Below are positions 1 through 58,306 of a stretch of 58,306 bases of DNA, piece after piece; the stretch's first letter is position 1, and each line of letters starts with the position of its first letter. This DNA comes from a virus: positions 1-58,306 of IMG/VR virus record IMGVR_UViG_3300005841_000038, one strand, 5' to 3'. The notes under the pieces were generated by a model, which was not told the DNA's origin, ran no database searches, and saw only the letters and a program-made list of their open reading frames with translations. Position numbers and translations under genes: made by a program.

Positions 1-248
1 GCCGAGGTCGAATACTGGGAGCTCGGGGCGGCGTGCGCGCCGGTCGTGGCCGACGCCGACAAGATCCAGGAAGTGCTGCTTATCGAAGCGTGTAGAGCGG
101 CTCTTGAGCGTAGTTGCGACCGTCTCGGCAGCGCGATCGACGGCGGCGAGCTGGGCCGCGCGATGGAGCTTGCGGTCCTCGACGCCCGGCTGGTTACTCA
201 TGTAGCCACCTGGTGGCGGCCAGCTCGATTCGATCTCGGCGCGTAGCG
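1..248. repeat. Terminal direct repeat, left copy
   Basis: Bases 1-248 recur at 58059-58306 with only two differences: C at 121 against T at 58179, and A at 136 against G at 58194. This is the overlap expected when a circular or circularly permuted genome is assembled as a linear contig, so the unique genome length is 58,058 bp. The two mismatches look like real population variants, because both are silent in the reverse-strand gene that crosses the junction. Confidence 0.9.
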
Positions 249-43572: not shown

Positions 43573-43818
43573 ATGCTCTCGATCGTTCTCGAGCTCAACG
43601 AGCCCGGCGTTACGACGCTCGACATCCTGTCGATGGTGCAGCGTGACGCGATCACGCAGGCGCTCCATGCCGCCGATGGCAACATCACGCACGCAGCCAC
43701 GCTGCTCGGCACCACGCGGCAATCGCTACAACGCCGGATGCGACGGCTTCGCGTTCAGCCGCCTTCGAAAGCGCGCAGGGTCCAAAAGTCGTCCGCGAGC
43801 TCGGTGCTCGCGACGTAG
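43573..43818 (+). CDS. Fis-type helix-turn-helix protein
   Basis: Protein of 81 residues from ATG 43573 (GTG 43570 also possible). RDAITQALHAADGNITHAATLLGTTRQSLQRRMRRL is the Fis/NtrC-C-terminal DNA-binding helix pair. No AAA domain. Its 3' end overlaps 64 bp of the convergent peptidase gene. It could be a DNA-bending regulator for late genes or for integration. Confidence 0.65.
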   Translation: MLSIVLELNEPGVTTLDILSMVQRDAITQALHAADGNITHAATLLGTTRQSLQRRMRRLRVQPPSKARRVQKSSASSVLAT

Positions 43819-44525
43819 TCGTACGGCATCGTGAAGTAGCCTCGCATGCCCCAGCTCGTGCCCCAGCTGTTGCGCACGAGCAGCGTCCTGGCGACGTCGT
43901 CGTAGCCAACCGCCATCACGGCGTGACCGCCGAGCTGGGTCTCGAGCCGATCCGGCATCGGCACGATCCCGCTTTTGGCGACCGCGGCCGACACGAAGCT
44001 GTCGTAAACCGAGAACCCGAACACGAACGGATAGCCCTCGGCCAAGCACTGTCGCATCTCGAGCAGCGACACGATGCGGTGATACGAGGTCACGCGATGC
44101 CGCTGCGCTGCGGTGTACGCGACGCTCGGCGGCTTGCGTGCGAACCGCTGCACGAAGTAGGGCCACGCGCTCTCGAGGCAGGCGCCTTTCTTGACGAGCG
44201 ACTTAACGCCATCGCGGAGCATTGCGCCCGAGTCTTCGCCGACCGTCCCCTCGATCACCCGCTCGTTGTAGTAGACGAACAGCCGCGAGTAGTTCGGCGG
44301 CGTCCGCTGCGTGTGCTTGCGGCACAGAAATTCGAGGTTACCCACGAGCGCATTCGCGGTGCAGCTGCCGAGATCGCCCTGGTCTTCGACTGCCGAGCAA
44401 GTGGCGCGGAGATCGACCTTCGGCGGCATCGTGGCCGGCGGCTTGGCGATCGCGCGGTAGAGCCTGTCGCGAAAGTCTGGGCGGTCCGGGATCCATCCGA
44501 GCCGGGCGTGCTTGGACTTGGGCAT
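43755..44525 (-). CDS. Papain-like (C1A) cysteine peptidase
   Basis: Protein of 256 residues from ATG 44525. The catalytic set is complete: Q49 and C55 (VEDQGDLGSCTANA), H201 (GGHAVMAVGY), N219 (VRNSWGTSWG). No propeptide or signal peptide, so it is cytosolic unless released by lysis. It sits between the lysis block and integrase, the usual site of lysogenic-conversion genes. Function may be degradation of a host protein or cargo delivered on lysis. Confidence 0.82.
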   Translation of the reverse strand: MPKSKHARLGWIPDRPDFRDRLYRAIAKPPATMPPKVDLRATCSAVEDQGDLGSCTANALVGNLEFLCRKHTQRTPPNYSRLFVYYNERVIEGTVGEDSGAMLRDGVKSLVKKGACLESAWPYFVQRFARKPPSVAYTAAQRHRVTSYHRIVSLLEMRQCLAEGYPFVFGFSVYDSFVSAAVAKSGIVPMPDRLETQLGGHAVMAVGYDDVARTLLVRNSWGTSWGMRGYFTMPYDYVASTELADDFWTLRAFEGG

Positions 44526-44563: not shown

Positions 44564-45943
44564 TTACGCGGGGCGCCTATCGAGCGCAAACTCCTGCTCT
44601 TGCACCTGTTCTTCGATCGGGTGCAAGGCGTTTGCACCCAGCATTGCTATCGAGAGGTCGCACGAGGTCGCGATCGATCGCTCGCCTCCGTCGAGGACGC
44701 GTAGCTCGAAGTTCCCAGAAATCGCAGGCTTGGCCCTTCGAACCCCTCCTCCGGAGCCAATGTTTTCCGACGACGACACGAGGTGCGGGTGCAAGGCGGG
44801 TGCAAGCCTTAGCTTGGCAACCTCGCGGCAGGTGGCCACCCAGTGCGGCCCACGGTCGTAGCCGTCGAACGCATCCCGGCGCGGCTTGGTATGCGTGACG
44901 CGGTCTCGGATGATGTCCGGATCGGCGCCGTCCTCGATGGCCAGGGTGATGAACGTCGATTTTGTGTCGTAGACCGAGCGGTGCCGCCAGCCGAGCATCG
45001 GCTCGTCGTGCTCGCGCCACTTCTTACCGGTGTAGTCCCAGCCGCGAAACCGCTCGCCGGTTCGCTTCGTGCGCTTCACATCGGGCGGCAGCGGCACGAG
45101 CAAATCGTCGGGCCCGGGCGCAACCCCCATCATCCGCGCCCAGCCATGCGCCTGCCACGCGTCCAGGAGCTTCGCGAGCGCCGGGTGCACGGGCACATGC
45201 CGCACCGCTTCGGTCTTGGTGCGCTTCGTCTGCGAGCGGGACGTCGAATAAGAGAGGGCGACCACAAGGCATCGGAGCGGCTTGCGCTCGAGGTAGTGCC
45301 GCCAGCGCAGCGCGGCTCCTTCGCCAGGCCTGAGGCCTGCGAGCAGGCCGAGTGCGTATACGATGCGCCGATCAGGCGGGATGCGCGTGTCGGCCATCAT
45401 GTGCTCGGCCTCCTCGCGCGTGAAGATGGCGCCGTCACGCCACTCTGGATCCTTGTCCACGACGGGGCCGAGCTGACGCTCATCAAGGATGCACGGCGAT
45501 GTCGTGATCCTGCCGGCAAATGCGGCATCGCGGAGCGCAGCGGCCAGCACCGAGTAGATGTTCCGCACGGTGCGATTTGCGAGCTTCTTTTTAAACCGGA
45601 GATCGTGCACGAGGTCGGCAATGCGTGCGGTCGTGACGTCAACAAGCGCGAGATCGCCGAGCGCCGGCAGCACATGCTTTGCGAGTCGGCCGCGATCTTT
45701 CTTCCAGTCGTGCCCGGCTTCCTGGCGCTTGACGAGCCACGCTTTGATCCATTCACGCAGCGATGCTGCGCCTGCCGTGCGCGTCTTGTTTCGCTTGTCG
45801 ATAGTTGCCTGCGCGAGCTTGGCGTACTCGAGCGCCTTGGCTTTGTCGGTCTCACCGGTCGGCGCGTTGCCCCACTTGCCGGGTACTTTTTCGCCCTTGA
45901 GCCGCGCGTAGTACTGGGAGTTTTTCCAGAAAACCGAGGGCAT
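44564..45943 (-). CDS. int: Tyrosine recombinase integrase with extended C-terminus
   Basis: Protein of 459 residues from ATG 45943. SAM-like arm-binding domain at residues 55-145; catalytic domain 170-375 with R205 (AGLRPGEG), H351 (VTHTKP) and nucleophile Y362 (FDGYDRG). At the H-x-x-R motif the sequence is YDTK (325-328), so both usual residues differ. About 90 residues follow the tyrosine; a tRNA-3'-end-like sequence (44737-44759) lies inside them, making the gene's tail a likely attP, as in myxophage Mx8. Integration would then replace the last 57 codons. Confidence 0.85.
   Translation of the reverse strand: MPSVFWKNSQYYARLKGEKVPGKWGNAPTGETDKAKALEYAKLAQATIDKRNKTRTAGAASLREWIKAWLVKRQEAGHDWKKDRGRLAKHVLPALGDLALVDVTTARIADLVHDLRFKKKLANRTVRNIYSVLAAALRDAAFAGRITTSPCILDERQLGPVVDKDPEWRDGAIFTREEAEHMMADTRIPPDRRIVYALGLLAGLRPGEGAALRWRHYLERKPLRCLVVALSYSTSRSQTKRTKTEAVRHVPVHPALAKLLDAWQAHGWARMMGVAPGPDDLLVPLPPDVKRTKRTGERFRGWDYTGKKWREHDEPMLGWRHRSVYDTKSTFITLAIEDGADPDIIRDRVTHTKPRRDAFDGYDRGPHWVATCREVAKLRLAPALHPHLVSSSENIGSGGGVRRAKPAISGNFELRVLDGGERSIATSCDLSIAMLGANALHPIEEQVQEQEFALDRRPA
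44737..44759 (+). promoter_or_regulatory. Putative attP core (tRNA 3' end)
   Basis: The forward strand reads, in order, TTCGAAC (T-loop), CCCTC (T-stem strand), CTCCGGA (acceptor strand), G (discriminator), CCA: exactly the geometry of a tRNA 3' end. The matching 5' acceptor (TCCGGAG) is absent upstream, so it is not a tRNA gene but the 3' fragment that phages carry as attP. TCCGGAG with discriminator G would suit a tRNA-Asn, but identity is a guess. It is embedded in int. Confidence 0.65.
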
Positions 45944-45954
45944 GACCGGCGAGC

Positions 45955-46254
45955 CTAACCGAAACGCCGCCGCACGCGTTCTTCGATGCTGAGCTTGCTG
46001 TCGATCGTCACGACATCGCAGGCTAAAAATCGTTCGAGCTCGTCGCGCCTGACGAGCAATCGCGAGCCCGCCTCGTGCTTCGTCAATTCGCCGCGGCGCA
46101 CCCAGCGACGGATCGTATAGACCGACACGCGCGCGAGCTCGGCAGCTTCCCTGACGGATAGATACTCAGCGGTTGCATCGTTGGCCGGCATGGGGTCTCG
46201 CTTCGCGAGCTCGTCCCGAACGATCGCACGGATGAGCTGCTCGAGATCGCTCAT
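45955..46254 (-). CDS. Excisionase-like helix-turn-helix protein
   Basis: Protein of 99 residues from ATG 46254 (ATGA with the gene upstream). AEYLSVREAAELARVSVYTIRRWVRRGELTKHEAGSR and LLVRRDELERFL is the MerR-like excisionase domain. It is 11 bp upstream of int in the same operon: the normal xis-int arrangement, so it probably directs excision. Confidence 0.78.
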   Translation of the reverse strand: MSDLEQLIRAIVRDELAKRDPMPANDATAEYLSVREAAELARVSVYTIRRWVRRGELTKHEAGSRLLVRRDELERFLACDVVTIDSKLSIEERVRRRFG

Positions 46255-46640
46255 GCAGGAAGCTCTCTTGTGAGCGGCTGGCCGGATAGGATCAAGCTCC
46301 ATTGCCGGTGGAGCTCGCGGCGGACCACGAGAAGAAAGTCTGTTAGCCCTGGCGTCAGCGCGTACCACTCACCACGGATCCTGGACTCGCGCAGCCGACT
46401 ATGGAGCGTCGACTCGAGCGAGGCTGGATGCTCCGTCCAGATGAATGCGACGATCTGTAGTTCGTATGGGCAATCGGTCTGCGCCGACGACAAGCGGGCT
46501 GCGAGGTTTCTGGCGTAGCCGATCTTGACGTGACGATCCGGCGTCGTGCAGAGGATGAAATAAACGTAGCTGCCGCTCGGAGGAGGCGGAGGCAATTGCA
46601 GTCTCACCCAGCGATCGATTTCGAGATCGTGCTCGCTCAC
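46251..46640 (-). CDS. GIY-YIG (T5orf172-like) protein
   Basis: Protein of 129 residues from GTG 46640. YVYFILCTTPDRHVKIGYARNLAARL, then a late Glu in HPASLESTLHSRLRESRIRGEWY, fits the T5orf172 GIY-YIG fold. It is a small stand-alone nuclease candidate with no extra DNA-binding domain. Possible roles include host DNA damage or homing; not determined. Confidence 0.7.
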   Translation of the reverse strand: MSEHDLEIDRWVRLQLPPPPPSGSYVYFILCTTPDRHVKIGYARNLAARLSSAQTDCPYELQIVAFIWTEHPASLESTLHSRLRESRIRGEWYALTPGLTDFLLVVRRELHRQWSLILSGQPLTRELPA

Positions 46641-54791: not shown

Positions 54792-55000
54792 GTCCGTTTC
54801 CTTTTTTCGTTGGGCGAAGGTGCCGATTCGAACGGCGCCCTGTACGGGCCCTGAGGCGCTACCTCGGTACAGCGACCATCGCTGCCATTCCTTCGCAAGG
54901 TGCATGGTGGGGAGGCCACCCCTTGATCAGCCGCGCCGGGTCCACGCCTGGACCTCAACAGACGTGCGTGCGCACTGACCGCGCCCATGCGCGCGGGTTT
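54792..55000. other. Structured noncoding gap
   Basis: The 209-bp gap is full of short hairpins: GGTGG/CCACC (54906-54920), GGTCCA/TGGACC (54939-54954), and a GC-rich one near 54980-54998. It also holds the tRNA-like sequence below. It separates ssb from the RecA-like gene and may affect their relative expression. Confidence 0.45.
54811..54896 (-). tRNA. tRNA-like sequence, class II layout (uncertain)
   Basis: Reverse strand: GCGAAGG at the 5' end pairs with CCTTCGC at the 3' end (7 of 7) and CCA follows directly. A four-pair D-arm TGGC/GCTG has GG in its loop. The anticodon arm CCGAG/CTCAG has one mismatch and T33. A small variable stem is CCC-GTACA-GGG. The T-arm is GCCG-TTCGAAT-CGGC. Length is 83. 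The acceptor equals that of many tRNA-Leu. Problems: no discriminator base, loop reads AGC (not a class II anticodon). It may be degenerate. Confidence 0.35.
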
Positions 55001-58046: not shown

Positions 58047-58306
58047 TCACGAAACGATGCCGAGGTCGAATACTGGGAGCTCGGGGCGGCGTGCGCGCCG
58101 GTCGTGGCCGACGCCGACAAGATCCAGGAAGTGCTGCTTATCGAAGCGTGTAGAGCGGCTCTTGAGCGTAGTTGCGACTGTCTCGGCAGCGCGGTCGACG
58201 GCGGCGAGCTGGGCCGCGCGATGGAGCTTGCGGTCCTCGACGCCCGGCTGGTTACTCATGTAGCCACCTGGTGGCGGCCAGCTCGATTCGATCTCGGCGC
58301 GTAGCG
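58047..58306 (-). CDS. Junction-spanning small protein, C-terminal copy
   Basis: Same gene as at 1-291, seen in the right terminal copy. Its 5' part is missing because the contig ends. The reading frame continues to a TGA at 58047-58049. Only the last four codons and the stop are unique to this end. No function is recognised. Confidence 0.7.
   Translation of the reverse strand, partial: LRAEIESSWPPPGGYMSNQPGVEDRKLHRAAQLAAVDRAAETVATTLKSRSTRFDKQHFLDLVGVGHDRRARRPELPVFDLGIVS
58059..58306. repeat. Terminal direct repeat, right copy
   Basis: Second copy of the 248-bp end overlap. It differs from the left copy at 58179 and 58194 only. The contig ends inside the gene that is read on the reverse strand across the join. 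Confidence 0.9.

Follow-up and report, generated by a model that had tools for sequence, protein, structure and literature searches.

In the mycobacteriophages with integration-dependent immunity, attP is located in the repressor gene and integration changes the C terminus of this phage regulator. The target of the myxophage Mx8 is tRNA-Asp. Its attP is located within int, which acquires a new 3′ end when the phage integrates; the changed C terminus modifies the specificity of the enzyme without inactivating it, and Mx9 integrates by a similar principle (PMC6070905). An att site inside the integrase gene is also characteristic of the suicidal integrases, a class that has been described as exclusively archaeal (PMC8371274); in these SSV-type systems, integration partitions the gene. 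The 58,306-nt DNA analyzed here (IMG/VR record IMGVR_UViG_3300005841_000038; hereafter, the window) appears to carry a new, well-supported member of the group formed by the int-to-intX switches of Mx8 and Mx9: with a probability of about 0.85, its attP is complete, falls within the 3′ region of the phage's own tyrosine-integrase gene, and forms an Mx8-type int switch. As in the archaeal suicidal systems, the att site is within the integrase gene; in contrast to them, the catalytic part stays intact and only the C-terminal tail would be exchanged. The change of a C terminus is shared with the mycobacteriophage systems, although there attP is in the repressor gene and here it is in int. What is new is the occurrence of this layout in a diverged phage that targets a different tRNA, together with dozens of integrase loci from myxobacteria that share it.

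The integrase gene and its tRNA-like core

The int ORF (44564..45943, minus strand) encodes an Mx8-type tyrosine integrase of 459 amino acids (aa) in its phage form, as judged from its match to phrog_1 (E value, 2.8e-32), its similarity to Mx8 Int (37% identity over 77% of the protein; E value, 5e-35), and an AF2 model (mean pLDDT, 78) whose best matches among solved structures are lambda Int and Tn1549 Int. Among the INPHARED phages, no homologue of this protein was found other than Mx8 Int, so that what had initially been proposed as an analogy with Mx8 is better described as homology, with the annotated Mx8 site found in the same place and orientation. The catalytic Tyr362 (codon computed from the ORF at 44858..44860, minus strand) is invariant in an alignment of 13 sequences. 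The H-D-A-R box of Mx8 Int corresponds to Y325-D-T-K328 (44960-44971, minus strand) in the window Int and in its viral relative L013 (75% identical), to YDTR in L014 (67%), and to YDMR in L002 (50%). The second catalytic Arg is thus replaced by Lys in the two closest phages, the window and L013, and the presence of Y-D-T-K in place of H-D-A-R makes the activity of the window Int uncertain.

The gene immediately upstream of int, which occupies the place of uoi in Mx8, is an HTH_17 gene (45955..46368, minus strand) that matches PF12728 (E value, 2.6e-12) and the excisionases of phrog_66 (E value, 1.7e-10); judging from these matches, its product is likely the excisionase. The start of this gene is overlapped by a gene encoding a MUG113/T5orf172 (GIY-YIG-like) domain (46251-46640, minus strand). 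A gene for a papain-family cysteine protease (Peptidase_C1; E value, 4.8e-17) is found on the same strand just past the 3′ end of int, at 43755-44525.

The attP core (44737..44759, plus strand), with the sequence TTCGAACCCCTCCTCCGGAGCCA, sits antisense in int, past the Tyr362 codon and ahead of exactly 57 final codons (403-459), as the initial annotation had placed it. It reads as a tRNA-Asn(GUU) 3′ end, from the T-loop (TTCGAAC, 7 nt) through the 3′ strands of the T-stem (CCCTC, 5 nt) and the acceptor stem (CTCCGGA, 7 nt) to the discriminator G and the terminal CCA, a spacing that confirms the tRNA-like reading. ARAGORN predicted no tRNA at 44737-44759 and an Rfam scan of the window returned no matches, so that the 5′ half of the tRNA is indeed absent. 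The 20-mer of the core occurs only one more time in a viral collection of 2.9 million contigs, namely, at the homologous position of the L002 integrase gene, and L013 carries TTCGAAACCCTCCTCCGGAG, with a single difference, at the core position; two viral relatives therefore share both the core and its place. Because the 20-mer recurs at a homologous site and equals the 3′ ends of real tRNA-Asn(GTT) genes, the core is hard to attribute to chance.

The window is a soil phage genome in its unintegrated form. Its gene content includes helicase, methyltransferase, head, terminase-like, and baseplate-like genes, and the unintegrated state of the site is indicated by the missing tRNA 5′ half together with the near-identical ends of the window (1-248 and 58059-58306), which are identical at 246 of 248 positions. 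The remaining two positions may reflect either assembly errors or variation. A search for a lysogen of this phage found none. ARAGORN additionally reported a tRNA-Ala with the anticodon AGC at 54811-54895 (minus strand), which may be a false positive, since there was no Rfam tRNA match at this position.

Target tRNA and flanking repeats

The genome scan identified L014, located on a metagenome-assembled genome (MAG) contig titled Kofleriaceae bacterium, in which the core in the int tail, TTCGAAACCCTCCTTCGGAG, is identical to the 3′ end of the MAG's tRNA-Asn(GTT) gene, with the same variant in both. The pattern TTCGAANCCCTCCTYCGGAG was found in 13 of the 30 genomes searched in the GTDB family of L014, mostly within ARAGORN-called tRNA-Asn genes. 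The exact window core is present in the genomes G026 and G032, in both cases within tRNA-Asn(GUU), with 22 bp of identity in G026 and 23 of 23 bp in G032, which supplies the bacterial tRNA that the initial annotation had suggested searching for, within the family of L014. In a phylum-wide sample of 379 genomes, the exact core string was detected in a single one (G032). Given that the exact core is found in the tRNA-Asn of few genomes of one GTDB family, the phage probably infects a member of this family whose tRNA-Asn resembles that of G032.

The only element seen integrated at tRNA-Asn is L048 (G012:C373), which extends over 16 kb between the tRNA and a core repeat, confirming the target for a relative of the phage. 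Its Int ORF stops before the site, with a 281-aa ORF in between, so the overlap of int and attP can be lost. Isolated copies of the tRNA-Asn 3′ end that have no 5′ half (L030 and L035 in G030 and L025 in G010) may be scars left at this tRNA by other elements.

The core is flanked by arm-type repeats. The heptamer GGTGCAA is present in 13 copies in the window, of which 5 fall within 44600-44805, all inside int and on both sides of the core: two in tandem, with an 11-bp period, in the segment that separates the Tyr codon from the core (44788-44794 and 44799-44805, plus strand) and three on the other side (44600-44606, minus strand; 44620-44626, plus strand; and 44632-44638, minus strand). All four copies of GGGTGCAA in the window are confined to the same interval. 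Exact tandem repeat pairs past the Tyr codon, counted as pairs of a defined period, are a family trait, being found in 18 of 45 family loci versus 15 of 650 control windows from the int body. A generic count of repeated 9-mers past the Tyr codon did not separate the loci from the controls. The AF2 model begins with three strands and a helix, and the arm repeats would be bound by the N-terminal domain of Int.

The annotation of an Mx8 record places a recombination site and repeats inside intP, and the sequence there is an antisense tRNA 3′ end. The window shares with Mx8 a homologous Int, a core that is placed and oriented alike past the Tyr codon and consists of an antisense tRNA 3′ end, repeats within int on either side of this core, and the HTH gene directly upstream. 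It differs from Mx8 in the tRNA-Asn target, the unrelated tail sequence, the GGTGCAA sequence of the repeats, and YDTK in place of HDAR. The likeness of Mx9 to the window concerns the principle of its integration as described in the review (PMC6070905).

Predicted exchange of the integrase tail

With attP inside int, insertion into the host chromosome should swap the Int tail. In the proposed mechanism, Int would recombine the core with tRNA-Asn, the tRNA gene would be regenerated at the int junction, and int would then read backwards through it. Joining of the window to the tRNA-Asn gene of either G026 or G032 predicts a shortening of Int from 459 to 415 aa, such that the phage-only tail, codons 403-459 (44567..44737, minus strand), would be replaced by 13 codons (TPDQAVNSRLLYH) followed by a stop inside the antisense tRNA. 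The integrated form, IntX, would accordingly end in ...GVRTPDQAVNSRLLYH, and excision would bring back the long form. By the example of Mx8, the long and short forms probably differ in activity, in which case the product of the reaction would limit its own reversal. The reading frame across the core differs from that of the window int in both L014 and L002, so the host-encoded ending is not conserved. Since this ending varies between relatives and its reading frame is unfixed, it is probably the loss of the phage-only tail, rather than the gain of a host-encoded one, that matters. The lost tail is similar among the window, L013, and L014 (z scores of 10.5, 11.3, and 5.7), with the best similarity in the int frame. 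However, in the 29-codon tail block compared between the window and L013, the differences are spread over codon positions, so that protein-level constraint on the tail is only moderately supported. The helical character of the tails is a by-eye judgement accompanied by a low-confidence AF2 helix (427-439).

Scans of viral contigs, named genomes, and whole genomes yielded 47 nonduplicate integrase loci with a recognizable Tyr; a second scan of the viral contigs with a wider alignment added no new relatives. In 23 of the 47 loci, a complete tRNA or tmRNA gene encoded on the other strand overlaps the Int ORF; the product is tmRNA in 8 cases, tRNA-Asp in 6, tRNA-Leu in 3, tRNA-Pro in 2, and the tRNAs for Glu, Arg, Ala, and SeC in one case each. 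The SeC case (L076) is the least certain, as it sits in a very long frame. The prophages of this family keep the catalytic domain in an open frame up to the Tyr codon. A second copy of the core (22-24 bp) was found for four integrase loci, forming the junction pairs L016/L087 at tRNA-Glu, L064/L093 at tRNA-Ala, L006/L095, whose two ends are in one viral record and whose core has its match in the L015 tRNA-Leu, and L015/L118 at tRNA-Leu, which is less certain because the second copy is on another contig of the same MAG. The prophage Int of all four pairs ends shortly after entering the antisense tRNA; when int is joined to the sequence past the second core, the ORF continues in frame into a tail of about 75-85 residues, which the prophage form does not have. 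The suggestion that the Mx8 logic may operate here finds support among the relatives, whose prophage Int ORFs stop in or traverse an antisense tRNA or tmRNA and whose four junction pairs represent tail swaps. Compared with shuffled sequences, the rejoined L016 tail resembles that of the viral contig L012 (z score, 10.8) and the L006 tail resembles that of L015 (z score, 9.6), which argues that these tails are real coding sequences. A family-wide similarity of the tails was considered and rejected, the likeness being confined to the subgroups L012/L016, L006/L015, and window/L013/L014.

At the tRNA-Ala site, there is a single core copy in three genomes with no family integrase found there. The flanks retrieved for L041, L055, L056, L061-L063, L065, L067, L068, and L007 contained no second core copy, and L054 and L066, with ambiguous second copies, were left out of the count of junction pairs. 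Near the L066 integrase, tandem tRNA-Leu core copies of 24 and 28 bp (L111:2046 and L111:3240) are located about 1.2 kb apart, perhaps as a result of two nested elements. Overall, the sequence evidence suggests that the attP-in-int layout is family-wide among these myxobacterial integrases.

Alternative explanations and implications

The overlap of attP and int might reflect nothing but a compact module, in which the tail is translated att DNA, its swap has no regulatory effect, and both forms work equally well. The spread of the window-L013 differences over codon positions, the dissimilarity of the tails across the whole family, and the example of L048, which works, or worked, with no overlap, all fit this explanation. 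It is nevertheless rather unlikely, since the rejoined and viral tails are open, in frame, and similar within subgroups, and the changed C terminus of Mx8 has been reported to modify the enzyme (PMC6070905).

Inactivation of int by integration, as in the archaeal suicidal systems, would account for a site within the gene (PMC8371274). However, the catalytic positions of the window Int are all upstream of the core in a single ORF, so that integration would leave the catalytic part unsplit, the family prophages retain an open frame up to the Tyr codon, and the suicidal class is described as exclusively archaeal (PMC8371274), all of which makes this outcome highly improbable. Even less credence can be given to the tRNA-like stretch being a chance match or a relic, with the real attP located elsewhere. 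The junction of the window phage itself has not been seen, which would fit that explanation; against it stand three relatives (L002, L013, and L014) with the core at the corresponding place, the exact match of the core to a host tRNA, the flanking repeats, and the Mx8 precedent.

An attP within int that exchanges the Int tail upon integration, as in Mx8, thus remains the preferred reading for the window phage, and the attP core points to a likely host lineage of this uncultured phage. It is an evenly balanced proposition that the whole myxobacterial integrase family, whose targets comprise tmRNA and about seven tRNA species, employs DNA recombination to switch the Int protein reversibly, in which case the free phage would produce the form with the phage-only tail, and this tail would be removed by fusion of int to the antisense strand of a tRNA or tmRNA gene and restored by excision; the tail, which comes in several subtypes of unrelated sequence, would then promote integration. 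The many natural pairs of Int forms in this family make it possible to ask whether recombination takes its direction from the phage-only tail.
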